Source: Chitinophaga pinensis
GTDB taxonomy: Bacteria > Bacteroidota > Bacteroidia > AKYH767-A > OLB10
Direction: 5' to 3'
Assembly: GCA_943332105.1 (NCBI GenBank)
Contig: CALQOD010000024.1
Location: 1 to 34,579 of the forward strand
Length of the DNA stretch: 34,579 nucleotides
In this document: in pieces, positions 256 to 25,405 of the stretch
How positions within the stretch are numbered: the first letter of the stretch is position 1
Layout: each line of letters starts with the position of its first letter
Notes under the pieces: generated by a model
Database searches by the model: none
Told to the model about the DNA's origin: nothing
Seen by the model: only the letters and a program-made list of their open reading frames with translations
Program-made: the position numbers and the translations under genes

Positions 256-1335
256 CTACTTTTCAGATCCAGTATAGTTTCTCCATTTCAAAATAACCCT
301 TTGCAAATCGTCGGGTAATTCAGTTTCTAAATACAACTCTTTTTTCGTGGTTGGATGGATAAACCCCAACGAAATTGCATGGAGTGCTTGTCGTGGTAAT
401 ATAGAAAAACAATTTTCAACAAACTGCCTATATTTTGAATTAACAGTCCCTTTTAAAATACGGTCGCCACCATAATTACTATCATTAAACAATGGGTGTC
501 CAATATGTTTCAAATGTACTCTTATCTGATGCGTTCTTCCTGTTTCAAGTTTGCACTCTACTAATGTAATGTAATTGAATCGCTCCAAGACTTTATAATG
601 AGTTACAGCGTGTTTGCCAAATTGCCCCTCAGGAAAAACATCCATTATTTTTCGATCTGCCAAGCTCCTACCAACATTTCCAGTAATTGTTCCGCTGTCC
701 TCTTTCACATTTCCCCAAACCAATGCCTGGTACCTCCTATTAATAGTTCGCTCAAAAAACTGATTGGCTAAATGGCTTAACGAATAATCAGTTTTAGCCA
801 AAACAATTAACCCTGAAGTATCTTTATCTATACGGTGTACTAATCCAGGTCGCTGTGATTCGGATGTAATTGGATTTTCACCTAGTTCCGGAAAAAGATG
901 ATAGATTACTGCATTTACCAAGGTCCCTCTGTAGTGACCATATGCAGGGTGAACAACCATTCCAGGTTTTTTATTGACCACAATTAATTCATCATCCTCA
1001 TATAAAATTTCTAAAGGGATATTATCTGGATACAACTCGATTTCTCGAGGAGGATGTGCGAACACTACCGAAATTTCATCACCAGGTTTTACTTTGTAAT
1101 TTGACTTTACTGGCTTCTTATTAACTAATATAGAGCCTACATCAGCTGCCTGCTGAATTTTATTTCTTGATGTGTTTTGCACTCTATTGTGTAAAAACTT
1201 ATCGATGCGCAATAATCCCTGATTAGCATCAACAATAACTTTCAAGTGTTCGAACAACTCATCTTGTTCATGCTCATTATTATCTAATGGAGTTGAGCTA
1301 TCCAAATTTTCAAATGAAGAAAAATCTTGTTCCAA
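256..1335 (-). CDS. rluD: RluD-family 23S rRNA pseudouridine synthase
   Basis: RNA pseudouridine synthase of the RluA/RluD family, which isomerises uridines in 23S rRNA. With the start used here (359 aa) an N-terminal S4 RNA-binding domain spans roughly residues 43-90. The catalytic domain follows, with HRIDKDTSG carrying the nucleophilic Asp (about residue 170), then GRTHQIRVH further on. There is no in-frame ATG before the catalytic domain. TTG at 1335 is chosen because it lies 5 nt after the stop of the upstream gene. Another TTG at 1377 would add 14 residues and overlap that gene by 37 nt, and later TTG codons are also possible. It is the last gene of the rdgB-ddl-PASTA operon. The family assignment is secure. 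Target uridines (E. coli RluD modifies 1911, 1915 and 1917) are inferred by homology. Confidence 0.93.
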   Translation of the reverse strand: MEQDFSSFENLDSSTPLDNNEHEQDELFEHLKVIVDANQGLLRIDKFLHNRVQNTSRNKIQQAADVGSILVNKKPVKSNYKVKPGDEISVVFAHPPREIELYPDNIPLEILYEDDELIVVNKKPGMVVHPAYGHYRGTLVNAVIYHLFPELGENPITSESQRPGLVHRIDKDTSGLIVLAKTDYSLSHLANQFFERTINRRYQALVWGNVKEDSGTITGNVGRSLADRKIMDVFPEGQFGKHAVTHYKVLERFNYITLVECKLETGRTHQIRVHLKHIGHPLFNDSNYGGDRILKGTVNSKYRQFVENCFSILPRQALHAISLGFIHPTTKKELYLETELPDDLQRVILKWRNYTGSEK

Positions 1336-1340
1336 TATGC

Positions 1341-3227
1341 CTATTTTTGAATTGTAATTCGTTTTGTAATCACACAACCATCACCAATAATTTTTAACAG
1401 ATACAATCCAGGCGCTAAACTACTACAGTCGATAGAAGATGCATAAACAGCAGTATGAATCAGCTTGCCTTCCTGAGAGTATAATTCATAAAATTCAGGT
1501 ACAATATTTTGATTTAAACTAATATTAAGGATGTTGTTTGTTGGATTTGGAAAAACAACAACTTGATTTAAATTATCTGTTAGAGGTAATCCTGCAAACA
1601 AATTTGTATCACCCATAACAGGTCTTATCATAAATGTACCATTTGCAACGCCAACATTATTCCAAGTACCACTAATGTTATAAAACATATTTGCGTTTGA
1701 AGTTGTATTTCTATCAAATCCCAAATGCAACCCATCAGGTAATACTTGCTGAAACCCAATATAAATAATACCACTTACAGGAACAATCTGATCTAATACG
1801 TAAGTACTATAACCATTTACTTCATCAACATAACTTGGCTTCTGATTCGATTCTTGATACAAGATTGTTTCAGGACTCAGGCTGCTCCAGATTTTTATTG
1901 CAAACAAGTTGTTAGCAACGCTTGCGCCTTGTTGCGTAAAATAAAAACGAACCGCTCGTAGAGTATCTGGTTTAATAATATCGAATTTCATTGCTAACTT
2001 CCCATTGGGAGCATTAATTAAATCGTAAGCCACTTCAGCACTACCATCATCATAGCTATAGTAGTTATAAAATCCTTGCTTATAGTACAATGTATCATTA
2101 TCTCTAACTCCGGTAAATGAAGCAGAATTTGAAAAAAAAGATTTAACTGTAAAAAAAGTACTATCATCGCTAATTGCAGGAGAATAAGGGAATAAAGAAT
2201 CTAACGGCGATGTATAGCTTAAATTTATATTATAAGGCTTATTTGGAAAAATATTTCCGTTTGTCTGACCAAATCCAGAAATGTAATTACCTAAATAATC
2301 ATAAATTCTGGTATTAAAACCTACATCGTTATTCACATCATCATTAACCCTATAGCTTACAGTTAACGAATCATTGATTAAAGCTAGTTGATCCACAACA
2401 GATAATGCTTTGAAATGGTCCCAAGGGATAGAAGTATATCCATTTAACAATGAACTTAGCGGTTTAATAAAAGACACATCTCTCAAAATAGTATCAATCT
2501 GACCAGTAGCACTATTGTAGGAAGCCTTTAGACGTACATAATCCAAATGCCACACATCTAAATTTCCTGTTTGTGCTCCGTATGAACGAAAACGAAACTG
2601 AAAACCATCTTGATAAAACACCGAATTATTTAATGTAATATTTATAAGATTAAAAACTGAGTCCTGCCCAAAGGAAACGCCTCCCCCTTTCCCCCACTGC
2701 CTAGACCAAACACCAGTTGTTGGATTATAAAAATCGAGCAATAAGGAATCCGCCACCTCTGGCGCATCACCTAATCCTTTCTTTTCATAATAAAAACTTA
2801 GTACTAAGCTATCTGCAAGACTATAATTACCACCAAGCGGTTTCGAATATAAATTAATTGGCCTACTAGTTAAAGTGTCACAGCCTCCTTGCGCAGTCGC
2901 AAATGAATTGTTATAAGGATTACCCAATTCATTCAATCCATCAAAAGTTGCAACACCTAATGTAACAGGATTTATGCAAAATGTATTATTTACATACACC
3001 TTGTTATCTAACCACTTTGTATTATCGGGATAAGGCGAGTTATTAGAAAAGTCATCAATGAAGGGCAAATTCAGATTAACCATAAAAAATCGGTTATTCA
3101 AATTAGATTTTAATTGGTTATTTGTAAGGACTTTATTGTATTTTAATGGAACAATAATTTCATTTTGAGCTATACCTTTAAACTGAATAAGTAAAAAGAA
3201 AACAAGTAGATATTTTTTAATATTCAT
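1341..3227 (-). CDS. Secreted protein with T9SS type A sorting domain
   Basis: A 628-aa exported protein of unknown function. It starts with a signal peptide (MNIKKYLLVFFLLIQFKG, cleavage probably after IAQ). The last ~75 residues form a type IX secretion C-terminal domain: the VVFPNPTNN motif, then a short beta-rich tail ending in KRITIQK. The body (about residues 45-540) is rich in Asn, Tyr and Ser and looks like beta-sandwich material, but I recognise no named domain. The ATG at 3227 is chosen because the signal peptide begins there. It overlaps the PASTA stop by 11 nt, suggesting translational coupling, whereas a longer ORF start at 3257 would put ten extra residues before the signal. It lies between a PASTA protein and rluD, an unexpected place for a surface protein. 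It may act at the cell surface, but nothing in the sequence gives an activity. Confidence 0.85.
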   Translation of the reverse strand: MNIKKYLLVFFLLIQFKGIAQNEIIVPLKYNKVLTNNQLKSNLNNRFFMVNLNLPFIDDFSNNSPYPDNTKWLDNKVYVNNTFCINPVTLGVATFDGLNELGNPYNNSFATAQGGCDTLTSRPINLYSKPLGGNYSLADSLVLSFYYEKKGLGDAPEVADSLLLDFYNPTTGVWSRQWGKGGGVSFGQDSVFNLINITLNNSVFYQDGFQFRFRSYGAQTGNLDVWHLDYVRLKASYNSATGQIDTILRDVSFIKPLSSLLNGYTSIPWDHFKALSVVDQLALINDSLTVSYRVNDDVNNDVGFNTRIYDYLGNYISGFGQTNGNIFPNKPYNINLSYTSPLDSLFPYSPAISDDSTFFTVKSFFSNSASFTGVRDNDTLYYKQGFYNYYSYDDGSAEVAYDLINAPNGKLAMKFDIIKPDTLRAVRFYFTQQGASVANNLFAIKIWSSLSPETILYQESNQKPSYVDEVNGYSTYVLDQIVPVSGIIYIGFQQVLPDGLHLGFDRNTTSNANMFYNISGTWNNVGVANGTFMIRPVMGDTNLFAGLPLTDNLNQVVVFPNPTNNILNISLNQNIVPEFYELYSQEGKLIHTAVYASSIDCSSLAPGLYLLKIIGDGCVITKRITIQK

Positions 3228-4002
3228 AATGTCGTTCAGTTTTATTTTGATAGACAACTCGCAAATTTACGGATTCACCCTGCTTTATAAATATAGAGTC
3301 GCCAGGCATCGGCATTTGTTCCACAACAAAGAAATTCAATGAGTCTAATTTCCCTGGAGGATAATCAACAACTCCTACATTCAATGCGGAGCCTTTTAAT
3401 ACAAATACGGCTTCTTCTAAGGACAAGTTAAGCAAATTCGGAACTGCAACATCTGTTATTCCCACACCATCACCCAATACTAAATCAATACGCGAGCCTT
3501 TTGATATCAACTGACCAGCAGAAATGACTTTTCCGTTACTTGACATTTCCAAAACCGCACCTTTCGCTAAATCTGGTTTGTAAATCATACTTCCCATTCT
3601 AAGTCCATAAGAGAACAAAATTGCTTCAGCTTGTCGTTGGGATACATCAATAAGATTAGGCAATTTTACTTGGGGAGGAACTGTTCGAGTAATGCTAATA
3701 TAAATAGTCCGCCCTTCCTTAACTTGCTCATTAGGACTAGGATCTTGCTCGATTACAACACCTGGGCCTTTATCCAAAATGAAATTGGAGGAGTCTGAAA
3801 TTTTAAAGCTGAGCGATTTCTCTTCAAGAAACTTTTCAAGCTCGGCATAATTCATTCCTTTAATATTGGGCACAGTTACTGTTTCACCGTGGTTTGTATA
3901 AGACCCCAACCAAATTACCAAGGCAATTATGACCACTGCTAACCCTGCTACTGATGCAATCAGATGTATAATTATTTTCTTTTTTGACAATCTTTCTTTC
4001 AT
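3217..4002 (-). CDS. Membrane-anchored PASTA-domain protein (no kinase domain)
   Basis: A 261-aa protein with a short basic cytoplasmic N-terminus (MKERLSKKK), one transmembrane helix at about 13-34, and three PASTA repeats in the periplasm (about 41-108, 112-180 and 186-253). Each repeat starts with a V-P-N or L-P-N motif: VTVPNIKGM, VKLPNLIDV and VAVPNLLNL. PASTA domains in Ser/Thr kinases and class B PBPs bind peptidoglycan or beta-lactams. Here there is no kinase or transpeptidase domain, so a sensing, scaffolding or anchoring role is inference. It begins 7 nt after the D-Ala-D-Ala ligase stop, which supports a cell-wall role, and its stop overlaps the next gene by 11 nt. Confidence 0.9.
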   Translation of the reverse strand: MKERLSKKKIIIHLIASVAGLAVVIIALVIWLGSYTNHGETVTVPNIKGMNYAELEKFLEEKSLSFKISDSSNFILDKGPGVVIEQDPSPNEQVKEGRTIYISITRTVPPQVKLPNLIDVSQRQAEAILFSYGLRMGSMIYKPDLAKGAVLEMSSNGKVISAGQLISKGSRIDLVLGDGVGITDVAVPNLLNLSLEEAVFVLKGSALNVGVVDYPPGKLDSLNFFVVEQMPMPGDSIFIKQGESVNLRVVYQNKTERHYEY

Positions 4003-4009
4003 GCGAAAA

Positions 4010-6715
4010 TCAATTTAAAACATTCTGTGATAGCTTTTCTTTTCTAGAAACACCATAACTCAAGATTTTATCTATAAAGTCAAGTGGTTTATATTTAGCT
4101 ATTGCAGCTTGATGGAAAATACAAGTAGCTGGTGTCATACCAGGCAATGAATTCACCTCAATAAAAACAACTTCTATTTTATCAGCATTAAAAATTCTCA
4201 CAAACGCATCTATTCTGGCATAGCCTTCAATATTTAACAAACGTGCAGCCTTACCTAATTCTTTTTTTACTGCATTAGATATTTTTTGATTTTCAGAAGG
4301 CAGCATTGAATATCTAGCTGGAGTAATGTTTTGTCCTTGCCCAGCTAAAAATTTCTCTTCTAAGGATAACACATCCCCTTCTGACAACGCCTCTGAGGCC
4401 TCAAAAACCTCATAACTCAACTCCCCTTTTTCATTAAAATAAGTTAACATACCACCTGTCACTTCAATAAAATGGGATGCATTTTCAGCAGTAATAAGCG
4501 ATTCAATTAAAAAGGAGGCCTTTATAGGGAATTCTTCTTTGGCCTTAATTTTTAATTGAGCAACAGCCTCTTGATTTAATTCAAGTGAAGAACGAAAAAT
4601 CAATTTGCAAAAAGCAATCAAATCTTCTTTTGACCTCAAAATTTTTACAGCAGAACTACAACCATCATCAACAGGCTTTGCAATAAAAGGAAAAGAAAAA
4701 TCATTTAAAATATGCTGATAAAATGATTCCTCATCTAATTCAAAGTCTACTCTTTTTACCACTTCATGCTTTGCTACATGAAACCCATGTTTGCGTAAAA
4801 TTTCATTGGTATGAAATTTATCTATTGTGATTTCAGAAGAAGAAGGTCCAGAGCCATTATAAGGTACATTTAACTTATCTAATTCTTTCTGTACAGAACC
4901 ATCTTCACCGGGCCTTCCATGCAATGCAATAAACACCACATCAGCCATTTCAGCAAGATTAGCATAAGTAATGCGTTGTGGTTTTTGCAAACTCTTTGCA
5001 GATGAAAATTGTTCCGTGATTGATCCGGCTTTTTTAATAATATCTAGAACAATAGGATGTACTGAATAACTATCCACTTTTTCTTTAATATCATCTGCAT
5101 TATCTTTTAATAAAGCGTTAATTGGCAGCGTAAACAACTCATGATTATCATTTGAACCAGTCAAAAAAACCGGAAACGGTTCATATTTGTCACTAGATGA
5201 CAATTTCTCATACACATTTCGTCCGCTCTCAACTGAAATATGTCGCTCAGAAGAATAACCACCTAAAATAACAGCGGCACGAAGCTTTTTACTTTTTCTT
5301 TCTTTTGCATTATTCAATGACTTTTTCAAATCGGTCAGTAATAATGGCAATTTATCAAACGACTTAAAATCGCTAATTCTAGACCTTAATGAAGAATAAA
5401 TAATAAATGTTATAAACTGAGATGGGTTAAGTCCAATTTCAGCAGCCTGATGAAAAAAGAAAGAGCTAGGCATCATTCCCGAAGTTGTATTAGGATCATT
5501 CAAAAAAACTTTACCCTGATCTGTAATAAAACCATCTATACGAGCATAAACATTAAACTTAAGCGATGTAAATAAACGCTCACACTCTGTCCTTATAAAA
5601 TCAATATGGTCATCATCAATTTGTATTGGAGTAATTTTTCTAGACAATCCTGGTAAATATTTCGAACGATAATCGAATAACTCTTTACCTTTTCTTATCT
5701 CAGTTGGAGGCAACGCAACGGGCATTCCATTAAGATCTTCAACTACGATACATGAAAACTCTTTACCGTCAATAAAAGACTCTAACAAAACCTCTGATTC
5801 ACCCTCAACACCAACAACACGAATCATTTCATCACCATTAGTAAATAAATCAATTATTACCGATAACAATTCTTCAGGATGATAAATTACTCTAGAATCA
5901 ATTTTAACAGGAAGCCCTACTCCTTCTCGTATATCACTTAACTCACGAACAAAATCTAATTTGTCTTGGAATTGAAGAATGTCCCAATCTATTCTTTTAA
6001 TTTCACAAATAAAAAGTGCTTTATTTATTGAATTGTAAAATTGGCCGAATGAATTATTGTCCACAATGGAGATACCAATTGAAGAACCTTGATTAGCAGC
6101 TTTTGCGACATAAGGTACACCTATAGTTTCCATTGCTTCACGAAAAAGCGCAGCTTGGTTTTTTTCATTCATCCAAGCTTCTCGTGAAATTGAATAATAT
6201 TTGGGCACATCAAAGCCAGCATCCTTCATCAGCGACTTTTGAATAGACTTATTCATTCCAATGGCAGAAGAAAGTATACCGGAACCCGTATACGGAATTC
6301 TTAAATACTCTAATAATCCTTGAAGTCGACCATCTTCGCCATCACTACCATGTAAACATAAAAATGCAACGTCAATTATATCTTTTAGCTCAGTAGCATC
6401 AATGACCCTTCCCAATTTTTCTACTAAGTCGTATTGCAAACTTTTATCAATATCGCCTAAACTCTCAGCATAAATTTGAAATCCATTTGAAGAGTAGGGA
6501 ATAAAATCAGATGGAGGATAAAAATCACGAATGCTGCCCATATAAACAAACTCCCAATCAAGTAAAATCAAATTACCAAAGCTATCTACAAAAACAGGTA
6601 TAGCCTCGAATAACGATTTATTTAAATTATCATATACAGTTCGTCCCCCAGCAAAAGAAACTTCGCGTTCACGGGAAGTACCACCGAAGATTACACCGAC
6701 TCTGATTTTTTCCAT
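4010..6715 (-). CDS. ddl: Tandem D-alanine--D-alanine ligase (two fused Ddl units)
   Basis: A 901-aa protein, more than twice the usual Ddl length (about 300-370 aa). It contains two complete Ddl/ATP-grasp units. Unit 1 (residues 1-460) has GGTSREREVS (11-20), HGSDGEDG (122-129), PYTGSG (141-146), KAANQGSSIG (205-214), KYLPG (352-356), ARID (391-394) and NDPNTTSGM (406-414). Unit 2 (478-890) has GGYSSERHIS (485-494), HGRPGEDG (599-606), PYNGSG (618-623), KPVDDGCSS (680-688), KFLAG (788-792), ARID (833-836) and EVNSLPGM (853-860). Ddl joins two D-alanines using ATP to supply the peptidoglycan terminal dipeptide. Key residues differ between halves: the Mg-ligand Glu is Asp407 in unit 1, and the DdlB Tyr216 equivalent is Tyr353 in unit 1 but Phe789 in unit 2. 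Family assignment is firm. Whether both sites are active is unknown. Confidence 0.93.
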   Translation of the reverse strand: MEKIRVGVIFGGTSREREVSFAGGRTVYDNLNKSLFEAIPVFVDSFGNLILLDWEFVYMGSIRDFYPPSDFIPYSSNGFQIYAESLGDIDKSLQYDLVEKLGRVIDATELKDIIDVAFLCLHGSDGEDGRLQGLLEYLRIPYTGSGILSSAIGMNKSIQKSLMKDAGFDVPKYYSISREAWMNEKNQAALFREAMETIGVPYVAKAANQGSSIGISIVDNNSFGQFYNSINKALFICEIKRIDWDILQFQDKLDFVRELSDIREGVGLPVKIDSRVIYHPEELLSVIIDLFTNGDEMIRVVGVEGESEVLLESFIDGKEFSCIVVEDLNGMPVALPPTEIRKGKELFDYRSKYLPGLSRKITPIQIDDDHIDFIRTECERLFTSLKFNVYARIDGFITDQGKVFLNDPNTTSGMMPSSFFFHQAAEIGLNPSQFITFIIYSSLRSRISDFKSFDKLPLLLTDLKKSLNNAKERKSKKLRAAVILGGYSSERHISVESGRNVYEKLSSSDKYEPFPVFLTGSNDNHELFTLPINALLKDNADDIKEKVDSYSVHPIVLDIIKKAGSITEQFSSAKSLQKPQRITYANLAEMADVVFIALHGRPGEDGSVQKELDKLNVPYNGSGPSSSEITIDKFHTNEILRKHGFHVAKHEVVKRVDFELDEESFYQHILNDFSFPFIAKPVDDGCSSAVKILRSKEDLIAFCKLIFRSSLELNQEAVAQLKIKAKEEFPIKASFLIESLITAENASHFIEVTGGMLTYFNEKGELSYEVFEASEALSEGDVLSLEEKFLAGQGQNITPARYSMLPSENQKISNAVKKELGKAARLLNIEGYARIDAFVRIFNADKIEVVFIEVNSLPGMTPATCIFHQAAIAKYKPLDFIDKILSYGVSRKEKLSQNVLN

Positions 6716-6791: not shown

Positions 6792-7379
6792 TCAAGCTCT
6801 GCTAGCAAAAAAATCTTGTAGCTTTTCGAGGGCTTTTGCTCTATGAGAAATTTGATTTTTATCGACCGCCTCCATTTGTGCAAAGGTGCGATCAAACCCA
6901 TCGGGTATAAATATCGAATCATACCCAAAACCATTTGCGCCAAGAGGAATAGTTGTAATTGCCCCACTTACCTCACCATCAAATAGGTATTCATTTCCCT
7001 CGATTACCAAGGTCATAACAGTCACAAAACGGGCACTCCTATCCTGCTCTCCATCCATTTCGCGCAATACGAAATCAATATTTTCAAAATTATTAGGAGG
7101 CAATCCTGCATAATGAGCACTATCCACACCTGGTCTACCATCTAGCGCATTAATTTCAAGTCCGCTATCATCAGAAAGGCAATTCATCCCTGTTCGACTG
7201 AAAACATACCAAGCCTTTTGTCTCGAATTACCTTCAATGGTATTGGTGGTTTCTGGAATCTCATCGAAAAACCCGATATCATTTAATGTTAATAATTTGA
7301 AACCCGTTGGCAATAATTTTCGTATTTCTTCTACTTTCTTTGCATTGTTTGTGGCTAACAGCAATTTAACTACCTTCAT
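6792..7379 (-). CDS. rdgB: RdgB/HAM1 non-canonical purine NTP pyrophosphatase
   Basis: A 195-aa house-cleaning enzyme that hydrolyses dITP, dXTP and XTP to monophosphates and pyrophosphate, keeping deaminated purines out of DNA and RNA. Family motifs are present: TNN (10-12), SDDSGLEI (69-76), GFGYDSIFIP (150-159) and SHRAKA (178-183). The length matches the family (about 190-200 aa), so it looks complete. It is the first gene of the minus-strand run, 76 nt upstream of ddl. Only 30 bp separate its ATG from that of the divergent PKD gene, so promoters of both must overlap coding sequence or be very short. I found no consensus promoter there. Confidence 0.95.
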   Translation of the reverse strand: MKVVKLLLATNNAKKVEEIRKLLPTGFKLLTLNDIGFFDEIPETTNTIEGNSRQKAWYVFSRTGMNCLSDDSGLEINALDGRPGVDSAHYAGLPPNNFENIDFVLREMDGEQDRSARFVTVMTLVIEGNEYLFDGEVSGAITTIPLGANGFGYDSIFIPDGFDRTFAQMEAVDKNQISHRAKALEKLQDFFASRA

Positions 7380-7409
7380 TAAAATAATTTGATAATTCAG
7401 AACGCTAAA

Positions 7410-10400
7410 ATGAGGAATAAAATTCTATTTTTTTTAATTACTTGCTTTTTATTTTCATCGATTATTGGATATGGGCAATGTCCATCTCCTGGATATAGCT
7501 TACCAGATACCGTTTGTCCGAATACACCCATTGCTATTACCAATTCCAGTACTGCTATTTCATTCAATTGGGATAATGGACTTGGCGATTTAGATTCAAT
7601 ACCAACAGCCTCTATATTACCTGCGGTGGCGGGAACACTTACTTACCCTGAAAACATGAAAGTGGTTTTTGAATATGGTAATTATTATGGGTTTGTTCCT
7701 AATGCACTTGCGAGTTATATCACCAAATACGAGTTCGGTAATTCTTTGAACAATAATCCTTCAATATCTAATTTACCATCTGATGCCTCACTATCCAGCT
7801 TTCAAACCGGAATAGATGCAGTAAAAGAAAATGGTAAATGGTATTTATTTATTACAATGTATTCTTCAAATAGTTTAGTTAGAGTTGAAATGGATTCTAT
7901 AAATCAAAACTTGAATTTGATTTATACTAATGTAGCCATAAACGGTCCTTATAATCCATGGAGCATTAAACTATTTGATCATGTAGGATTCATCATGAAT
8001 AACCAAGATGATAAAATTATTAGAATTGATTTTAATGGCAACTATGCCAATACTCCGACAGTTTTACAACCATACGTTTCAACTGGCTATTTTAATAATT
8101 TTGGTTTTGACGTTGTTTATGACTGTATAAGCAATAATTATATAGGCTTTGGAACATCATTTAGTGCTGGAGCAATAATCAAGTTTAATTTTGGAAGTTC
8201 TTTATTAAACACTCCTTCCGTATCAACAATTTTAACAGGTGTTAATGGCGCACAAGGAGTTCAGATAATAAAAGAAAATGGGACATGGCATTTATTTTTA
8301 GTGAGCAACACAAACCTTTTTTATAATTATAGTTTAGGAAATAGTCTAAGTAATAATTTATCACTTCTCTACTCTAGCTCATTAAACGCGGTTTTCAGTG
8401 ATCCAAAAAATATTCAACTTTTTAAAGAAGGAAATAAATGGATTGGAATGATACCTAGTACCAGTTCGTTTAATATCGTTCGAGTTAGCTTTCCCTTTGC
8501 TAATCAAGTCAACAATCAATTTTCAACAGATCAATCACCATCAACTATTTCATTTAGTCCGAATGCGCTTGGTTATCAAAGAATAGAATTCAGAGAGGAA
8601 TTTGGAAATGGAATTAGTAAAGTTTATCTCGACTCAGTTTATGTTAACATCGCTCCACCGATTGCTAATTTTACTACATCCAATCTATGCGTTAATGATT
8701 CAATTAGCTTTTTTGATAGCTCTGAAATTTGCTTTGGAAATATTGTTAACTGGGTTTGGTCGTTTGGAGACGGAGGCACATCAACGGATCAAAATCCGAA
8801 GCATCTTTATACAACAACGGGGTTATTTAATGTATCGCTAGTTATTACTGATAATTTTAACAATACTTCTTCCTACAACCAAAATATAACTGTAAGACTA
8901 AAACCCATTGCTGATTTTAACTTTACCAACAACAGTTGTAGTGGAACCCTCGTTCAATTTATTGATGCATCTGTTTCTGCTGATGGAAATATTACCAATT
9001 GGAATTGGATAATTAGCAGCAATGATTTTTCAAATAGTACAATTAGCAGTTCATTCGTAAGTCCAGGTTTATACCCAATTCAATTAACTACCACAACAGA
9101 ATTTGGATGTTCCGATACAGTAACAAAACAAATTACTATTGAACCAACTCCTATAGCCGACTTTTCTGTAAGCAATACTTGTATTAATGAGATTGCTGTA
9201 TTTAATAATCTCACCGACTCTAATACAATTTCAAATGTTAGCTACCAATGGCAGATTGGTGGATTTTTAGGAACTAATAATCCTAATCCTACTTATCAAT
9301 TTCCTTCGACAGATGGAGTTTATGGTATTTTACTAATTGCAAACTCACCTAACGGATGCGCAGATACGATTATCAAATCAATTTTAATTGGCAACAGACC
9401 AAATCCTGATTTCACATTAAACGCAGATACCGTTTGTCAAAATTCATTATTCACAATTACAGATAATTCTATTCCTGGATTGTACAATACTATCAGCAAT
9501 CGTAGATGGGATATGGGTAATGGTATAACTATCGATGATTCTTTATTATTTCACTATGCATACACCACTCCAGGAACATATCAAATTCAATTAACAGTTA
9601 ACGGACCTACTGACTGCGATTCGAGTGTCTCTAAAACGATTGTTGTTGTTGCTAGTCCTTTGGCAAATTATAATGTAAGCGATGCATGCTTAGGCGCTAC
9701 CACACAGTTTACCGATATATCAACCAGCCCTGTAGGAACATTTATCAATTCATGGCAATTGAATTATGGAGATAACACCCAAACAACTAATCCAAACAGC
9801 ACCCATCTTTATTCAATCGATGGTAATTTCGCAACTTCATTAATTGTAACATCGAACATTGGCTGCTCCGATACTACAAGTATTACTGCACTTGTACATC
9901 CATTACCTACAGCTAATTTCATTATAGGAAAATCCTGTACAGGTAACGAAACAATGTTCACCGACAGTACTACAATATCATCAGGCACAATTACCAATTG
10001 GTCGTGGAACTTTGGTAATAATTTAGGTAGTAGCATTCAACAAAATCCATTGTTTATTTTTCAGAACAACTTTGCTTATCCAGTGCAATTAATCAGCAGT
10101 AGTAGCTTTGGGTGTTTAGATACGATAATCAAATACATTGTAGTTGAAAAGACGCCAGATTTTAATATTATCACAATCGACAACTGCGAAGGCATTTCTA
10201 GTCAGTTAAACTACTCGTTACTATCTTCAGCATCAACCAGCCTTGCATTTTTATGGAACTTTGGTGACTCTACTTCTTCCTTCCAACCAAATCCATCACA
10301 TCTTTATAGTAATTCAGCGACATACAATTTAACACTTGAAGTCACAGACCTGAATAACGGATGTACACTTACCAAAAACGATTCGATAAAAGTAAATCCT

Positions 10401-11474
10401 AATCCAGCAGCTAATTTCAATTACTCGGACGCTTGCATTGATAAAGCAATTTTATTAATAGAAAATTGCAGCTTAGCTTCTGGCGCCATTGTCAGTTTTG
10501 CATGGAATATAAACAACGTACAGACACTCAACGGGAACAGTGTATCTTATATAAGTGGTCAAACAGGACTATTAAACACAACACTTACTGCGACAAGCGA
10601 TTTTGGGTGCAAAGATTCTATCACCAAACCTATTACAATATATCCCAATCCTAATATTGAATTCACCAGCGATATTATTTACGGAGCGCCGCCACTTACA
10701 ATAAACTTCTACAATACTTCATCAACTGGAAATTACTTATGGGATTTTGGTGACGGCTCATCAAACTCTTCACTAACAAATCCATCGCATGTTTATTTTG
10801 ATACAGGAAGCTACCAAGTGGAATTAAATGTTGTAAATCCTTTTGGCTGTATTGATAGTGCGAAGCTAGTCATTAATGTATTCGAACCTATTGTTGACAT
10901 TAGTGTAATCAGCAGCTCAATCGCTCGACAAGGAAATCAATGGTTAATGAAAGCGCTCTTTAAAAATAATGGTAATTTAACAATCAATGATGTTGATGTA
11001 AAATTAAACCTTCAGGGAAAATCAATTTTATACGAGCGCATCACTTCACTTAATCTTTTGCCGGGAAGCATTATAGAATATGAATTCAAATCATCATTCA
11101 ATACGAATGAAAACACACCATCTTATTTTTGTGTTGAAGCAACATCAGTAAATAATTCTAATGATAGAAATAACGAAAACAACTCTTACTGCACAACTAT
11201 CAATGATAAATTTGAATGTTATAATTTATACCCAAATCCAGCAACTGATTATATTAGTTTTGGAATAACCATTCCTGAATATGATATTGTAGAGGTGCAA
11301 TTGTATAATGAATCAGGAGAAGATTGCATTCAATTACAATCGGACTATTACTCAAAGGGATATTCCAATATTGTATTAAACTTTAATAGAGCTACTATAA
11401 AATCTTCTGCTACGTATTTTATTAAAGTGCGTTATAAGGAAGAATTCAGGACATTAAAATTTGTCAAGTATTAG
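7410..11474 (+). CDS. Large secreted PKD-repeat protein with T9SS sorting domain
   Basis: A 1354-aa surface or secreted protein. The ATG at 7410 begins the signal peptide (MRNKILFFLITCFLFSS, cleavage near GYGQ), whereas a TTG at 7389 is in frame but would place seven residues before it. After the signal, residues ~25-410 hold repeated strand motifs (ENGKWYLFIT, ENGTWHLFLV, EGNKWIGMIP) suggestive of a beta-propeller. Then come about nine PKD-like modules. The first and last are canonical (WSFGDG near nt 8757, WDFGDG near nt 10740), while several in between have lost the FGDG core. A CARDB-like segment (about nt 10890-11200) precedes a C-terminal T9SS type A domain (YPNPATDYISF). PKD arrays usually serve as stalks or adhesive spacers. 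Substrate and partner are unknown. It faces the glycan locus convergently with a 1-nt gap. Confidence 0.9.
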   Translation: MRNKILFFLITCFLFSSIIGYGQCPSPGYSLPDTVCPNTPIAITNSSTAISFNWDNGLGDLDSIPTASILPAVAGTLTYPENMKVVFEYGNYYGFVPNALASYITKYEFGNSLNNNPSISNLPSDASLSSFQTGIDAVKENGKWYLFITMYSSNSLVRVEMDSINQNLNLIYTNVAINGPYNPWSIKLFDHVGFIMNNQDDKIIRIDFNGNYANTPTVLQPYVSTGYFNNFGFDVVYDCISNNYIGFGTSFSAGAIIKFNFGSSLLNTPSVSTILTGVNGAQGVQIIKENGTWHLFLVSNTNLFYNYSLGNSLSNNLSLLYSSSLNAVFSDPKNIQLFKEGNKWIGMIPSTSSFNIVRVSFPFANQVNNQFSTDQSPSTISFSPNALGYQRIEFREEFGNGISKVYLDSVYVNIAPPIANFTTSNLCVNDSISFFDSSEICFGNIVNWVWSFGDGGTSTDQNPKHLYTTTGLFNVSLVITDNFNNTSSYNQNITVRLKPIADFNFTNNSCSGTLVQFIDASVSADGNITNWNWIISSNDFSNSTISSSFVSPGLYPIQLTTTTEFGCSDTVTKQITIEPTPIADFSVSNTCINEIAVFNNLTDSNTISNVSYQWQIGGFLGTNNPNPTYQFPSTDGVYGILLIANSPNGCADTIIKSILIGNRPNPDFTLNADTVCQNSLFTITDNSIPGLYNTISNRRWDMGNGITIDDSLLFHYAYTTPGTYQIQLTVNGPTDCDSSVSKTIVVVASPLANYNVSDACLGATTQFTDISTSPVGTFINSWQLNYGDNTQTTNPNSTHLYSIDGNFATSLIVTSNIGCSDTTSITALVHPLPTANFIIGKSCTGNETMFTDSTTISSGTITNWSWNFGNNLGSSIQQNPLFIFQNNFAYPVQLISSSSFGCLDTIIKYIVVEKTPDFNIITIDNCEGISSQLNYSLLSSASTSLAFLWNFGDSTSSFQPNPSHLYSNSATYNLTLEVTDLNNGCTLTKNDSIKVNPNPAANFNYSDACIDKAILLIENCSLASGAIVSFAWNINNVQTLNGNSVSYISGQTGLLNTTLTATSDFGCKDSITKPITIYPNPNIEFTSDIIYGAPPLTINFYNTSSTGNYLWDFGDGSSNSSLTNPSHVYFDTGSYQVELNVVNPFGCIDSAKLVINVFEPIVDISVISSSIARQGNQWLMKALFKNNGNLTINDVDVKLNLQGKSILYERITSLNLLPGSIIEYEFKSSFNTNENTPSYFCVEATSVNNSNDRNNENNSYCTTINDKFECYNLYPNPATDYISFGITIPEYDIVEVQLYNESGEDCIQLQSDYYSKGYSNIVLNFNRATIKSSATYFIKVRYKEEFRTLKFVKY

Positions 11475-11475
11475 C

Positions 11476-12375
11476 TTATTTGAAAAGATAAATCAAGTAA
11501 TATTTGAAAATAGCAAGCGTTCGACGATTAATCACGCAAAGTGGATAACGATTGAAAGCACGAAGTAGATAATAAAAGCTTCTTTTTTTCTTTCCTACGA
11601 GCGCTAAATGCAATGAATTATAAGTATCTGAATGTGCTAAAATTTCCTGCCAATATTTACCATACATTTTAACAACTGCCAAGTCTCTAAATGCATAATC
11701 AATTGCCGATTGTTTACGTTTTACAAGACGTTTTTCATCTACTTTATACACACTTCTATCGTCATGCAAAATAAGGCATGCGCAAATTTTCTTGCCTCTT
11801 CGAAGACCGAAATTAGCACTTAATCGAAGCCATAACTCCCAATCTTCTGAACCAGACAATTCGCGGTCTTCATTAAAAGGAAACTGAAGTGCTTCTGCTC
11901 TTCTTATAAATACACCGAGGCAACTTAACGGATTTCCTTTCACTAAAAATTTCATATCACGATTGTGATAATTGTGTACAAGACGGTCACTGAATTTAAC
12001 ATAACTTCTGATTTCATAGGCTTGATGATAAAAAGGTATATAGTTATGCTTCTCCAAACCTTTAAGGGCTTCCTCAAGATAATCATCATAGAGCTGATCA
12101 TCTGAATCTAAAAATGTAACATAATCTCCGGTTGCAATTTGCACACCAATATTACGAGCCCTCCCACGCTCTGAATTATCAATTCTAATGAATATAATTC
12201 GATTATCTTTAATTGTTGCTACTACGCTTTCTGTTTCATCAGTACTACCATCATCAACTATAATTAATTCCAAATTTTTGTATGACTGCAACAAAACAGA
12301 TCTGATTGCAAGCAAAATAAATTCAACTCGATTAAATGTCGGGATTATTACAGAAAATTTAATATCACGATGCAT
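11476..12375 (-). CDS. Family 2 glycosyltransferase
   Basis: A 299-aa GT-A fold glycosyltransferase, with an inverting mechanism expected for GT2. The nucleotide-binding VDDGSTDE is at 40-47, the metal-binding DSDD at 90-93, and the acceptor-side SEDWELWLRL at 176-185, typical of surface-polysaccharide GT2 enzymes. The C-terminal ~100 residues are basic and may associate with the membrane, as in many such enzymes. It is the last gene of the eight-gene glycan operon, and its ATG overlaps the preceding GT4 stop by 11 nt. Donor and acceptor sugars cannot be read from the sequence. Confidence 0.9.
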   Translation of the reverse strand: MHRDIKFSVIIPTFNRVEFILLAIRSVLLQSYKNLELIIVDDGSTDETESVVATIKDNRIIFIRIDNSERGRARNIGVQIATGDYVTFLDSDDQLYDDYLEEALKGLEKHNYIPFYHQAYEIRSYVKFSDRLVHNYHNRDMKFLVKGNPLSCLGVFIRRAEALQFPFNEDRELSGSEDWELWLRLSANFGLRRGKKICACLILHDDRSVYKVDEKRLVKRKQSAIDYAFRDLAVVKMYGKYWQEILAHSDTYNSLHLALVGKKKRSFYYLLRAFNRYPLCVINRRTLAIFKYYLIYLFK

Positions 12376-13483
12376 ATAAAACCTCCAAAGAAATTATCAT
12401 TTTATTTACACCAAACTTAGATAAAACAGAATTACGACCATTATGAATCAAAAGATCTTTCAATTCATTATCAGAAAGAATTTTATAAATCGAATTATAA
12501 ATCGCCTCAGTACTCTTGAAATCAACAACAAGCGCATTTTTTTTATCTTCAATAAATTCTTTTGCTATTCCAGACATAGTGAAAACTGAAGGTATGCCGG
12601 CTGCTAACGATTCTACATATGTTTGTCCAAATGCTTCTGAATGCTCATCAATTGGTACATGTACAAAAACATTAAATAATTTATAAAGAGAATAGAGCTC
12701 TTTTTCAAATTTAATTGTCACAAAACTATCGTTATCTATAGCATTGAGCTGATCATAAATTTCAGCTTTCATATCGCCCTGTGCATTAGCCAAGATTAAC
12801 AAAGCATTAGGGAAATGATTTTTTATTTTTTGAAATGCGGGGATGATATACTGAACACCTTTCCATTCTGTAAACCGGGAAATAACACCTACTACAGGAA
12901 ATCTGCCAGATGAATTGTATTTTGATTTCAGGAATGAAATATTAGTTTCGTCACGATCAATAAATTTATTTAACTCAAACCCATGATGAATTATTTGCAC
13001 CTTAGTTGCCTTGACATATTCTTTATTGACAAGTACATTTTCAACATTCTTTGAAATAGCGATTATGTTCGTTGATAAAGCATTTATGAGCTTATCATAC
13101 TTTACAGCATGAGGAAAGTAATCGAAATGATAGGTTGAATGATGGCGCGTGTAAATTCTTTTTTTAATACCCATCAAAAATGCTACTGGCAAAGCGGTTA
13201 AACAAGCATCTATTAAATGTACATGCACTACATCAGGTTTAAGTTTAAAAAAGAGCTTCATCAGTTTAAAGGCCACTTTAAGATAATCGACTTTAGAGTT
13301 GAACTTAATAAAGAATGATTTGGTACCTCTTGAAATTAAATCACTATGCAACTTGGGTGTAGTTGGATTTAAAAAAATAAAATGCAAGTCGAACTTGTTT
13401 TTATCTAAATATTTATCGACCCAATCAAAGGCAAGTGCGTAATCAATTCTAGAAATAACATAAATTACTTTTATTTTTTCCAT
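12365..13483 (-). CDS. Family 4 glycosyltransferase
   Basis: A 372-aa GT-B fold enzyme, retaining type, of the GT4 group that includes EPS and LPS mannosyl-, glucosyl- and N-acetylglucosaminyl transferases. The N-terminal acceptor domain carries DVVHVHL (84-90), a usual GT4 strand. The C-terminal donor domain begins near VGVISRFTEWKG (198-209). The E-x7-E signature is Glu283 and Glu291 (EAFGQTYVE). It starts 8 nt after the preceding GT2 stop and overlaps the next GT2 by 11 nt, so it is co-translated within the operon. Length is normal for the family. Sugar specificity is unknown. Confidence 0.9.
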   Translation of the reverse strand: MEKIKVIYVISRIDYALAFDWVDKYLDKNKFDLHFIFLNPTTPKLHSDLISRGTKSFFIKFNSKVDYLKVAFKLMKLFFKLKPDVVHVHLIDACLTALPVAFLMGIKKRIYTRHHSTYHFDYFPHAVKYDKLINALSTNIIAISKNVENVLVNKEYVKATKVQIIHHGFELNKFIDRDETNISFLKSKYNSSGRFPVVGVISRFTEWKGVQYIIPAFQKIKNHFPNALLILANAQGDMKAEIYDQLNAIDNDSFVTIKFEKELYSLYKLFNVFVHVPIDEHSEAFGQTYVESLAAGIPSVFTMSGIAKEFIEDKKNALVVDFKSTEAIYNSIYKILSDNELKDLLIHNGRNSVLSKFGVNKMIISLEVLYAS

Positions 13484-13491
13484 CTAACTTA

Positions 13492-14382
13492 TCATTGAAA
13501 ATAAAAAGTGTCAGAATTTTTTCTAAAAAATGTTTTAAAGAAATTAAAAGGATCAATAAGTAATGAGATTAAGGCAAATTTTATAGACAAAATAAAATGC
13601 CCTGTTTTATAATAGGCACCAAACAATATGTAATTTGATTTTGACAAAAATAATTTACGAACATGATGAATAGGTTTAATAACTTCAATTACATATTTGT
13701 AAAAAAGAATATTGTCATTTATCAAATCTTCACTCAAACGATTTGACATACTTTCATTCCTTATCCGATATAATAAACAAATGCTTTCATCTCTCAAAAA
13801 ATGTCCTTTTAAGTGTTTGTCAATTTGCAATAAAAAATATCTATCTGCAGCACTTGACAGGGTCACATTAAACAAAAGATTATTATCCACTAAATCTACT
13901 TTTCTAAAGACATACCCTCCAGGACATGTTATTATCTCTGTATGATATAATAAAATTTCATTTTGAAAATTATCACAAGCAGATTTCATTAGACCATCTA
14001 CTTTGTTACCCGACTCATCAATTTTTTGAACCCAACCACATGCAAAACTAAAAAATGGATTAGCATTCAAAAATTGAATGCGAGCACTAATAAAATCCGG
14101 AGTCATTAAATCATCTGCATCAAAAAAAATAACATAATCACCACTTGCTTTTTCTAATCCAAAATTACGCGAAGCACTAACTCCGTAATTTTCCCTATTG
14201 AACACATTCATTCTAGGGTCATTAACTGTAGCCAGCACAGTAATTGTATCATCAGTAGAGCCATCATTAACAATAATCACTTCAATATTTGAATGCGATT
14301 GATTAAGCACTGATTGAATCGTATCAAGAATAAATCCTGATGCGTTATAACTGGGAATGATGACAGAAACCAAATCTCTCAT
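13492..14382 (-). CDS. Family 2 glycosyltransferase
   Basis: A 296-aa GT2 enzyme. SVIIPSYN opens the Rossmann-like domain (6-13), VNDGSTDD (38-45) binds the nucleotide, and FDADD (87-91) is the DxD metal site. A short hydrophobic C-terminal stretch (LSIKFALISLLIDP) may sit at the membrane. It lies 34 nt after the preceding GT4 and 8 nt before the next one, within the same operon. Its N-terminal third resembles the other GT2 of this operon, but the C-terminal two-thirds differ, so the two probably add different sugars or linkages. Confidence 0.9.
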   Translation of the reverse strand: MRDLVSVIIPSYNASGFILDTIQSVLNQSHSNIEVIIVNDGSTDDTITVLATVNDPRMNVFNRENYGVSASRNFGLEKASGDYVIFFDADDLMTPDFISARIQFLNANPFFSFACGWVQKIDESGNKVDGLMKSACDNFQNEILLYHTEIITCPGGYVFRKVDLVDNNLLFNVTLSSAADRYFLLQIDKHLKGHFLRDESICLLYRIRNESMSNRLSEDLINDNILFYKYVIEVIKPIHHVRKLFLSKSNYILFGAYYKTGHFILSIKFALISLLIDPFNFFKTFFRKNSDTFYFQ

Positions 14383-14416
14383 GATAATAACTCAAAAATA
14401 GAAAAATTTAAGTAAT

Positions 14417-15691
14417 TCACAGCTTGTTGATTATAGCTGCCAACGCCATTGCCTGATTCTCCCTGGAATAAAACTTTACTGCCTCTAAATTTCTACAAGG
14501 TAAAATATCCTGATTTTTCTCCCACATGCAATACCATCTATTTAACACATCTGTAAAATCCATAGCAGAAAAAACAGATTCACCCGTATTAGTTTTAAAA
14601 AGCAAATCATCAATAATATCTTTATCACCAGGGGCAATTATAATAGGATTACCACTCGCAATATAATCAAATATTTTTGTAGAAATAATCCCTTTAGTCC
14701 CCAGCCATCCAGGATATGATAACACTGTTGCCATTTTTGTTTCCTTAATAGCTTCTTCTTTGGATACTCTATCTGAAATATATAAGAAATCAGGTGGTAA
14801 TTCTTTTTTTACACTTTGACTAATTGCTGGAATAATATTTAATCCAATAAAGCGTAATTGTATTTTATCGGAAGATTTATGTTGCAAAAACAATTTTAAT
14901 CCTTCTAGCATTACCGACATATCTTGCTCAGGATAAATACTACCAACAACTGAAAATATGAATTTATTAGTTTTGACTCTCTCTGCCTGATCAAAAAGAT
15001 CACCTTCGTATCCATTATAAATTACATCAATGGGTCCGTTATAACTATTAACAAGCACCTCGCTAAATGAGGGAGTGATTACTGAAACACGACTAGCATT
15101 TTTCATCCATCTTTTAAAATGAAATGAATAGACCTTATCCCAGAATTGTTGCTGAATACTAGGTTGATAGTTGTTTGTCAACATCATATTATTCCAAAGA
15201 TCTCTTACATCAACAATCACTTTAATTTTGCGTTCATGGAGCAAATCAACCATCTGCAACATATTAAATGGTGGAACCGTCAATATTGCAACATCATATT
15301 TGTTTTGCTTTAAATGCTCAATAATAAAATCTTTGAATGCTAAAGTCCCATCTATTTCCGTATTTAACTTACCAAATATTGATAATAAAAAAAAATAAAA
15401 TTTTCCAAAAAACCTAGCCCCTAAACCAGTACCCGAAAAGAAAACGCTCCATTTATTTCTTTTTGATGGCAAGAAACAAACCCGATAATGGTCGTTAATT
15501 ATCTCTGTTATTGGTGAATTATTCGGACGAATAAAATCTTCCCAGGCATTTTCATGCCCAGTCCAATGTCGTGTGATAATAGTCGTATTAATTCCTTTTT
15601 TATAAAAATTATTAGCCCAGCTGAACGGTCTCCATGCTGGCGCTCCTGTATTAGGAGGGAAATAATAGGAAATCACAAGAACATTTTTCAT
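14417..15691 (-). CDS. GT4-like glycosyltransferase
   Basis: A 424-aa GT-B type glycosyltransferase. The N-terminus (NVLVISYYFPPNTGAPAWRP, 3-22) is the pattern seen in GT4-like EPS transferases with a glycine/alanine-rich donor loop. KIFDYIASGNPIII in the C-terminal half corresponds to the GT4 donor-site region, where the second Glu is replaced by Asp. FSVVGSIYPEQD marks the start of the C-terminal domain. The ATG overlaps the asnB stop by 4 nt (ATGA), so translation is coupled. Specificity is unknown. Confidence 0.85.
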   Translation of the reverse strand: MKNVLVISYYFPPNTGAPAWRPFSWANNFYKKGINTTIITRHWTGHENAWEDFIRPNNSPITEIINDHYRVCFLPSKRNKWSVFFSGTGLGARFFGKFYFFLLSIFGKLNTEIDGTLAFKDFIIEHLKQNKYDVAILTVPPFNMLQMVDLLHERKIKVIVDVRDLWNNMMLTNNYQPSIQQQFWDKVYSFHFKRWMKNASRVSVITPSFSEVLVNSYNGPIDVIYNGYEGDLFDQAERVKTNKFIFSVVGSIYPEQDMSVMLEGLKLFLQHKSSDKIQLRFIGLNIIPAISQSVKKELPPDFLYISDRVSKEEAIKETKMATVLSYPGWLGTKGIISTKIFDYIASGNPIIIAPGDKDIIDDLLFKTNTGESVFSAMDFTDVLNRWYCMWEKNQDILPCRNLEAVKFYSRENQAMALAAIINKL

Positions 15692-17394
15692 TCAGCGAAG
15701 GATTTAATAAAATAGTAAGCTACTAAATTTTGATAATCATTTTTACTTACATGATAGCCCTTACTTTTCAAGTCATTTTTTGAGGTTTTTACAATTTCAC
15801 GAACCTGATCCGTTTCCATCCAGCTGTTTTGAGGAGGAGCAAATCCTATTTTATCAGTACGGTTATAGATAGAATCAGGAAGAACATTTATCATGCTCTC
15901 TCTTAAGATATACTTTGTTTTACCATGATTATAAACATGAGTCATAGGCAATGAAAAAACAAACTCCACTAAATGATGATCAAGAAAAGGCAATCGAACC
16001 TCAATTGAATTTGCCATTGAGTTTCTATCTGCGTAACGCAGTAATTCATTTAAATTATTCTGAGTGTAGTATTTTAAAACCTGCTTCAATGAATGGCCAT
16101 ACTTAAAAACCTCCCGTTTTCTTCCAAAAACTTTGAGCAAAGGATCAATTAAAAAAGCATAGCCGATAGATTTATCTTTACCATAATGTTTCTTAAAATG
16201 ATTACGCTCTTCGAAGAATTTTTTAAAGTTCCCTTTGTGGTAATGCTCCCATAAAGCATAATATTTTAACTCATCATAACCTGCGAGATACTCATCTGCT
16301 CCTTGACCATCCAACAACACCTTCACTCCTTTTGTACGAGGCAACTTCATTACGCACCACTGCGCAAAAACAGAAGCTGATCCTGGAGGATATTCATGAT
16401 GCCAAATCATTTTTTCCAATTCCGATAAAAATGTAGAAGGCTCTGGCCAAATCTCGTTATTGACAAAAGATGTTTTGTTGGTAACATCGTTTATCCATTT
16501 CCCTTCGTCTAATTCACTTTTAAAACGAGCAGAAAATGTTTGCATATTATCAACACCTAACGCACTTACGCTACAAACGATAGACGAAGAATCTAATCCA
16601 CCAGACAAACTACTTCCTACAGGAACATCACTGCGTAAACGCAGCTGAATTGACTTATTAAAAAGCGTAATGAATTTTTCTTTGCTCTCATCAAAGCTCA
16701 ACTTCTCTTCTTTTAATTCAATACTCCAATAAACATGTTTTTCAAATTTATTTTTTGAAACAATCAAATAACTAGCAGGATCTAACGCATTAATATTTTC
16801 AAAAAAAGTAGTTGTGTTATCCATTACAAAACGCTCGTCGAGATAGTTCTGCAATTTCAATCGGTCAATTTTAATGTTTGGCAAATAAGCCTTAATTGAT
16901 TTAATCTCCGATGCAAATACAAAGCAATCTTCAGTATTATAATAATGAAAAGGCTTTTCGCCAAATCGATCACGAGCACAAAACAGTTCTTGCTTTGTGT
17001 CATCCCAAATTGCGAAGGCAAACATACCGTTTAAATATGACAAACATTTAACACCCCATTGCAAATAAGACTTTAAAAGCACTTCGGTATCGGAATTTGT
17101 TTTGAAACTAACATCAAGGCCTATGAGTTCATTTCTAATTTCAATATAATTATAAATCTCACCATTAAAAGCTATTACAGTACTTGCATCATCACTAATC
17201 ATAGGTTGTGAAGCCGCATCCGACAAATCGATAATTGAAAGGCGGCGGTGTAACAAGCGAATGCTATTGCTTTGATTGCTCCATGCCCCTTCACCATCAG
17301 GCCCTCTATGAGCCATCACATCGCACATTAATTGCGCTTTCTGAAGATCGACTTTTACTTCATTAAAATGATAAACACCAGCAATTCCACACAT
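15688..17394 (-). CDS. asnB: AsnB-like glutamine amidotransferase (glycan-locus copy 1)
   Basis: A 568-aa class II glutamine amidotransferase fused to an asparagine-synthetase domain. Cys2 (MCGIAG) is the N-terminal nucleophile, with HRGPDGEG (29-36) and FNGEIYNY (76-83) in the glutaminase domain. The ATP pyrophosphatase loop is LSGGLDSSS (263-271). LDGQGADEYLAGY (361-373) replaces the more usual SGEGGDE form, marking a different subgroup from the second copy at 22024. Family members make asparagine, but copies inside polysaccharide loci are often proposed to amidate a uronic acid or another glycan carboxylate, and that role is inferred here. It lies 6 nt after the acyltransferase and overlaps the next glycosyltransferase by 4 nt. 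Confidence 0.9.
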   Translation of the reverse strand: MCGIAGVYHFNEVKVDLQKAQLMCDVMAHRGPDGEGAWSNQSNSIRLLHRRLSIIDLSDAASQPMISDDASTVIAFNGEIYNYIEIRNELIGLDVSFKTNSDTEVLLKSYLQWGVKCLSYLNGMFAFAIWDDTKQELFCARDRFGEKPFHYYNTEDCFVFASEIKSIKAYLPNIKIDRLKLQNYLDERFVMDNTTTFFENINALDPASYLIVSKNKFEKHVYWSIELKEEKLSFDESKEKFITLFNKSIQLRLRSDVPVGSSLSGGLDSSSIVCSVSALGVDNMQTFSARFKSELDEGKWINDVTNKTSFVNNEIWPEPSTFLSELEKMIWHHEYPPGSASVFAQWCVMKLPRTKGVKVLLDGQGADEYLAGYDELKYYALWEHYHKGNFKKFFEERNHFKKHYGKDKSIGYAFLIDPLLKVFGRKREVFKYGHSLKQVLKYYTQNNLNELLRYADRNSMANSIEVRLPFLDHHLVEFVFSLPMTHVYNHGKTKYILRESMINVLPDSIYNRTDKIGFAPPQNSWMETDQVREIVKTSKNDLKSKGYHVSKNDYQNLVAYYFIKSFAE

Positions 17395-17400
17395 AACAAA

Positions 17401-17919
17401 TCAATCTGCTTTTTCTATTTGCTTAATTACTTTTGCCGGCACCCCTGCGATTATCACATTAGAAGGAAATGATTTTGTTACAACAGCGTTGGCGCCAACT
17501 ACCACATTATCGCCTAACTCTACACCAGCAGTGATTACTACTCCATTACATAACCAGCAATTTCGACCAATTTTTATTGAGGCGGTTTGATATTCTTTTA
17601 AATTACCGGGAATATGATTAGCGGTTTGAAGGCAAATATTATAAGCCCAAATAGTTCCACTACCTACCTCAATTGTTGTATCATCAAAAGCTGCAAGATA
17701 AGCTCCTCCACTTGCTAATAGATTTATAGAAACAGAATCATCTTCAAAGCGAATATTTTTCCATCCAGAAATTTTGTTGGTATAATTAACTAAGAAAGGA
17801 ATATCACTGTTTATGCGAAATACCCGCTGAACTATCCAACAAAAGAAGAGATAACCAACGTTAAAAGTAGTATAATAGGACTTTCCAAATAACTTATAAA
17901 ACCTGCGCATTATACCCAT
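17401..17919 (-). CDS. Left-handed beta-helix (hexapeptide) acyltransferase
   Basis: A 172-aa sugar O- or N-acyltransferase, probably using acetyl-CoA. Hexapeptide coils begin around residue 55. The candidate catalytic His is His102 (TANHIPG). A typical C-terminal set follows: IGRNCWLCNG, GVELGDNVVVGANAVVTKSF and IAGVPAKVI. The N-terminal ~50 residues include a hydrophobic stretch (VGYLFFCWIV, 21-30) that may touch the membrane. ATG at 17919 leaves 1 nt after the flippase stop, and an internal ATG at 17910 is an alternative. It would O-acetylate (or otherwise acylate) the glycan. Confidence 0.88.
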   Translation of the reverse strand: MGIMRRFYKLFGKSYYTTFNVGYLFFCWIVQRVFRINSDIPFLVNYTNKISGWKNIRFEDDSVSINLLASGGAYLAAFDDTTIEVGSGTIWAYNICLQTANHIPGNLKEYQTASIKIGRNCWLCNGVVITAGVELGDNVVVGANAVVTKSFPSNVIIAGVPAKVIKQIEKAD

Positions 17920-17920
17920 A

Positions 17921-22021: not shown

Positions 22022-22023
22022 TC

Positions 22024-25307: not shown

Positions 25308-25333
25308 GGTTGACTTTTCAATTTAATCGTTTT

Positions 25334-25366
25334 CAAAGATAAAATTTCTTAGGCAAGTTTAACCAA
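25334..25366 (-). promoter_or_regulatory. Candidate promoter for the Wzy-like gene
   Basis: On the minus strand TATCTTTG (25334-25341) is a perfect -7 box, 27 nt upstream of the Wzy-like ATG. The nearest TTG upstream is at 25364-25366, giving a 22-nt spacer, longer than the usual 19-21. The -7 match is strong and the -33 match is weak. Confidence 0.45.
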
Positions 25367-25405
25367 TCAACATTATCAATTTTTGAGTAATTTAGCAAAT
25401 AAAAA

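Follow-up and report, generated by a model that had tools for sequence, protein, structure and literature searches.

D-alanine--D-alanine ligase (Ddl) is an essential drug target and is generally regarded as a plain homodimer. A common dimer arrangement is seen in Ddl structures, and its pairing residues correspond to positions 70, 74, 88, 92 and 96 of E. coli DdlB (PMC6899670). Two active-site residues, Ser150 and Tyr216, are conserved in Ddls making only D-Ala-D-Ala, and DdlB altered at both positions toward LmDdl2, which carries Ala at 150, gained weak D-Ala-D-Lac activity (PMC7691350). It was also described that Tyr versus Phe at the 216 site decides between dipeptide and depsipeptide activity (PMC5996685). 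In plants, DDL consists of two fused DDLs throughout the lineage, including Physcomitrella and Arabidopsis (PMC9954125), just as a preliminary description of the present locus had noted for land plants, and moss Ddl was reported to be nearest to the Fibrobacteres-Chlorobi-Bacteroidetes group (PMC9434261). Here, a bacterial ddl gene is described that likewise encodes two Ddl units in one chain. It lies in the window, which is the whole stretch of DNA that was analysed (34,579 nucleotides).

Architecture of the fused Ddl

The gene is located on the minus strand (window 6715..4010), starts with ATG and encodes a protein of 901 aa with two complete Ddl units, while the plus-strand frame at 4010-6715 contains many stops and no open frame. 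In a Pfam analysis of the 901-aa protein, Dala_Dala_lig_N was found twice and Dala_Dala_lig_C in several pieces in both halves (whole-protein E = 3e-49 and 5e-50, respectively), and both halves were matched by NCBIfam Ddl models. The solved-structure sequences matching the protein (37 distinct) were without exception Ddl or Van-type ligases. The proposal of two full ligase units in a single reading frame was thereby confirmed, with the strand now given as minus; the boundaries proposed for the halves (1-460 and from 478) also hold, the C half extending to residue 901. The parts of the gene and the codons referred to below are as follows.

5336..6715, minus strand: N half, aa 1-460, D-Ala-D-Ala-type Ddl unit (Pfam, residue census)
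5285..5335, minus strand: linker, aa 461-477, mostly inside a predicted helix at 455-472 (translation, AF2 model)
4010..5284, minus strand: C half, aa 478-901 and stop codon, diverged Ddl unit (residue census, dimer-face reading)
6083..6085, minus strand: Ser211 codon of the N half (DdlB S150)
5657..5659, minus strand: Tyr353 codon of the N half (DdlB Y216)
5495..5497, minus strand: Asp407 codon of the N half (DdlB E270)
4658..4660, minus strand: Cys686 codon of the C half (DdlB S150)
4349..4351, minus strand: Phe789 codon of the C half (DdlB Y216)

The fused gene is the sole Ddl of the source genome (2.77 Mb, 96% complete). In the search for another ddl that the preliminary description had suggested, none was found by profiles, and the remaining PF07478 matches of this genome lie in frames without a PF01820 domain. 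Two other ligase frames of the genome may be mentioned. A second MurF lies in an 846-aa frame (C71:1242-2513), presumably a MurF-alanine racemase fusion, besides a stand-alone MurF at C38; the long-frame form occurs class-wide. An 880-aa frame with ATP-grasp and Mur-ligase matches (C68:8567-10078) has the look of a cyanophycin synthetase.

Distribution of the fusion

The fused architecture was detected in 34 of 41 related genomes, one of the 34 being interrupted by the end of a contig. When species-representative genomes were scanned, 292 candidate stretches were found to encode a relative, cultured Pontibacter and Rufibacter isolates included. In a class-wide sample, about 160 of 396 genomes carried the C half (matches with E < 1e-60 to the C half, counted by hand), almost always within a frame of some 870-950 aa; in a phylum-wide sample, consisting mostly of other groups, the fused form was rare. 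Exactly two PF01820 domains were present in all 25 fused genomes checked, single-contig ones included, and among the matches listed for these genomes each lay inside one long frame (868-1389 aa). Since the same architecture recurs across many genomes, some of them single-contig, chance and an assembly or frameshift artefact are excluded.

The class-wide count also rules out a rare oddity. Judged from the genomes sampled, the fusion arose long ago and has a wide distribution in the class, and the view of this gene as a parallel made notable by its rarity could not be upheld. The architecture is common, but neither a fused Ddl in Bacteroidota nor the invariant asymmetry of N and C halves reported below was found in the literature searched, which mostly did not extend to subscription papers. 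In a search of plasmids, a full-length fused copy was absent among the matches listed, the best match being the truncated form of Bernardetia.

Gene neighbourhood

The following genes surround the fused ddl in the window.

6792..7379, minus strand: RdgB/HAM1-type nucleotide pyrophosphatase (name based on sequence), lies upstream and is retained in many loci
3217..4002, minus strand: PASTA-domain protein (Pfam), 7 bases downstream of the fused ddl
1341..3257, minus strand: C-terminal sorting-type domain protein (name based on sequence), third in the cluster and also conserved
256..1377, minus strand: RluD-type pseudouridine synthase (Pfam), conserved fourth gene of the cluster

This cluster of rdgB-type gene, fused ddl, PASTA gene, sorting-domain gene and rluD is kept in many relatives. 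The PASTA gene adjoins the fused ddl in 37 of 80 named loci, several of the others ending at contig ends, and it often adjoins the single ddl genes of the class as well. From both observations we conclude that the fused gene occupies the ordinary ddl position of the class. Genes for a D-lactate dehydrogenase or a dipeptidase (vanH, vanX) are absent beside the fused ddl, its neighbours being those listed above. The one M15 peptidase of the source genome, which has a VanX-type look and an apparent signal peptide, lies on another contig and has no link to the fused ddl.

Elsewhere in the window, a surface-polysaccharide-type cluster (11476-26644) comprises glycosyltransferases, a hexapeptide transferase, a Polysacc_synt flippase, a methyltransferase and two asparagine-synthase-type amidotransferases (15688-17394 and 22024-23946), as well as two proteins of 475 and 454 aa without a Pfam match (20594-22021 and 23943-25307). 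A 1361-aa ORF (7389-11474) has by eye the look of a PKD-rich secreted protein, and a very large protein of at least 1666 aa with about 15 PKD domains (29462-34579) is open at the window end.

The halves differ at substrate-determining residues

Residues were numbered after E. coli DdlB and read in 111 distinct fused proteins and 25 more distant ones, down to 40% identity (136 in total). The N half keeps E15, H63, K97, K144, S150, K215, Y216, R255, D257, N272 and G276, with K144R in one protein, and its Mg ligand Glu270 is replaced by Asp in 136/136 (motif NDPNTTSG in the 901-aa protein). The C half keeps E15, H63, K97, K144, S151, K215, R255, D257, E270, N272 and G276 in all 136 proteins, and carries S150C and Y216F in all of them; in the census of 111, E17H, G153A and S281T were also found. 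Ser150, Tyr216 and Glu270 were present in all 49 single Ddls read (23 + 26). The ATP, Mg and catalytic residues of the C half are therefore complete, and its substitutions fall at substrate positions, not at ATP positions. To judge from these invariant and opposite substitutions, the earlier guess that the two halves have specialised appears to be correct.

Both halves evolve at a similar pace. Mean pairwise identity among the 111 proteins was 0.622 for the N half and 0.640 for the C half, with a correlation of 0.90, and dN/dS against close relatives, where measurable, was about 0.03-0.05 for both halves, dS being near saturation. By these sequence comparisons purifying selection is equally strong on both halves, and with identity and dN/dS close to those of the N half, the C half does not appear to be a decaying second copy.

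Dimer face and predicted structure

The published dimer numbering was moved to DdlB via His63/His70, and the face was scored at seven positions (74, 75, 78, 88, 89, 92 and 99), some of which were added by us from the same helices. The dimer face is hydrophobic and conserved in the N half and polar and variable in the C half: mean hydropathy was +2.2 in N halves, +2.4 in single Ddls and -2.3 in C halves, and charged residues made up 56% of the face in C halves against 1% in N halves (0-1% in N halves and single Ddls). Entropy was 2.46 bits in the C half versus 0.91 bits in the N half. Core strands were equally hydrophobic in N halves, C halves and single Ddls. With a C-half face of this kind, the two halves are unlikely to form a symmetric internal Ddl dimer, and it is simpler to infer from these sequences that N pairs with N' of another chain. 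The proposal put forward for this protein, an obligate heterodimer formed inside one chain in the usual Ddl manner, is accordingly not supported: the N half retains the canonical face, which in the C half is charged and variable.

An AF2 model of the fused protein, built with 46 sequences, reached a pLDDT of 85 and a pTM of 0.86, with the lowest confidence in its two omega-loops (344-357 and 780-793). The model suggests a defined placement of the halves relative to each other.

Origin of the halves

In profile comparisons the halves resembled each other less than either resembled single Ddls: the scores were 453 for N with DdlA-type, 428 for N with DdlB-type, 372 for C with DdlB-type, 284 for C with DdlA-type and 258 for N with C. 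In a tree, N halves and C halves each fell on one side of a branch, and N was joined beside C, the two stems being very long (1.6 and 3.7 changes per site); this placement is to be read with a warning of long-branch effects. A recent tandem duplication of one ddl is not supported, as N-C is the lowest profile score and the stems are long. The halves may have originated either by tandem duplication or by fusion of two different ddl genes.

Truncated forms and an apparent replacement

In one family (f15), represented by four genomes (99-100% complete, one single-contig), the sole PF01820 gene encodes 558-590 aa, made up of a full N half and about 110 further residues. A similar protein of 623 residues is found in Bernardetia sp. 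Wsw4-3y2; the gene of this truncated fused Ddl (NZ_CP147018.1, L222 4998-6869) lies on a 602-kb replicon labelled as a plasmid. A profile of the C-half N-lobe matched the f15 and Bernardetia tails with 14-39 bits, the best of 200 shuffles reaching 5.5 bits, and on this ground the short tails are regarded as C-half remnants. When N halves were placed in a tree with single Ddls as the root, the truncated forms branched as the sister group of all full-length ones (support 90); it is therefore the homology of the remnants, not nesting in the tree, from which C-half loss is inferred. A two-gene ddl in f15 was considered and rejected, as the stop ends a truncated C half and does not separate two genes. 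The four f15 genomes depend on an N half that also has Asp at 270, and since it is their sole Ddl, the N half suffices as the Ddl of the cell.

In one genome of the window's own order (G037), the fused ddl is absent and a single DdlA-type gene lies directly before the same PASTA gene. This gene (L192 43-1926) is 53% identical to E. coli DdlA and appears to be a replacement in place. As read from these genomes, the C half, conserved where present, can be lost in evolution.

Discussion

We propose that the fused gene would be the only source of D-alanine--D-alanine ligase in the cell, its product consisting of two Ddl units that are not alike. The N half would make the D-Ala-D-Ala of the cell wall and would pair N-N' between chains like an ordinary Ddl. 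The C half, tethered to the N half and packed against it in a defined way, would be a retained ATP-dependent ligase unit with a rebuilt acceptor site. It may link D-Ala, or some other D-amino acid, to a second molecule of a different kind; alternatively, its D-Ala-D-Ala activity would at least be much reduced. That the N half is a D-Ala-D-Ala ligase and the C half an ATP-using ligase unit with a changed acceptor site is our best explanation of the residue pattern, and one that we hold tentatively. It has to accommodate that the C half persists as a mere remnant in f15 and Bernardetia and that the whole gene appears to have been replaced in G037, from which it follows that any second product is not essential everywhere, and also that the C-half Cys150 differs from the Ala of LmDdl2. 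The more specific claim of a bifunctional Ddl in a large part of Bacteroidia, whose N half makes D-Ala-D-Ala and whose C half produces some other D-Ala-X dipeptide or depsipeptide, is unlikely on present evidence; if true, these bacteria would have a hidden second cell-wall precursor or D-amino-acid product. A partner for a second product was not found, and a link of the fusion to the second MurF is ruled out, as two MurFs, one of them in the long fused frame, occur class-wide with or without a fused Ddl.

The changes at substrate positions rather than ATP positions would also fit a regulatory pseudo-ligase, in which the C half is able to bind ATP as well as D-Ala or D-Ala-D-Ala, carries out no useful ligation and adjusts the N half through contact; ligand-binding residues would then stay conserved while the acceptor chemistry is lost. 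The defined packing in the AF2 model (pTM 0.86) and the fact that f15, Bernardetia and G037 do without a full C half agree with such a role, which we nevertheless consider somewhat unlikely: R255, D257, E270, N272, K215 and the remaining catalytic positions do not vary in any of the 136 C halves, which exceeds what a mere binding domain needs, and the rate of evolution is no higher in the C half than in the N half. It is less probable still that both halves are ordinary D-Ala-D-Ala ligases and that the fusion merely doubles the dose. All catalytic residues are indeed present in both halves of what is the sole Ddl of the genome, but S150C and Y216F are invariant in the C half and absent from 49/49 single Ddls, one invariant opposite signature is not expected of redundant copies, and the halves are less alike than either is to single Ddls. 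An intramolecular pseudo-homodimer formed through the usual Ddl interface, as the preliminary description had modelled it, would be in line with the shared dimer arrangement of Ddl structures (PMC6899670) and with the defined packing of the halves in the AF2 model; the polar, variable and highly charged face of the C half, set against the conserved and nearly uncharged one of the N half, makes it very improbable. Overall, the interpretation given in the preliminary description stands for the two units, their specialisation, the sole ddl and the plant fusion, and fails for rarity and for the internal heterodimer of the usual type.

In a large share of one bacterial class, Ddl is thus a two-unit chain with a second unit that is equally conserved and altered at acceptor-determining residues. 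If the C half is active, these bacteria may have an unrecognised product; if it is regulatory, they would have a built-in control of cell-wall precursor supply. The function of plant DDL is debated, and through the shared architecture the bacterial fused Ddl may serve as a tractable model for which half does what, with the natural truncations as ready comparison enzymes.

Comparison with known systems

Compared with bacterial Ddl (DdlA/DdlB of E. coli, TIGR01205), each half has the same domain pair in the same order and nearly all catalytic residues, and the same cellular role of the fused protein is probable from its status as sole Ddl. In contrast to E. coli DdlB, there are two units per chain, and the halves are longer (about 468 and 431 versus 306 residues); the N half has Asp for Glu270, and the C half carries S150C and Y216F and is without the canonical dimer face. 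Like the D-Ala-D-Lac ligase LmDdl2 of Leuconostoc, the C half has Phe at the Tyr216 position and a replaced Ser150, but the residue at 150 is Cys and not Ala. Unlike LmDdl2 and VanA, the C half belongs to a gene without adjacent vanH or vanX, comes from Bacteroidota and is joined to a D-Ala-D-Ala-type unit. In the MurC-Ddl fusion (NCBIfam NF011171/PRK14573) and the MurF-Alr fusion, peptidoglycan-precursor enzymes are likewise joined in one chain, but there the enzymes are different, whereas here two units come from one family. Land-plant DDL likewise has two Ddl units per polypeptide, the plant form being chloroplast-associated and found in a eukaryote.
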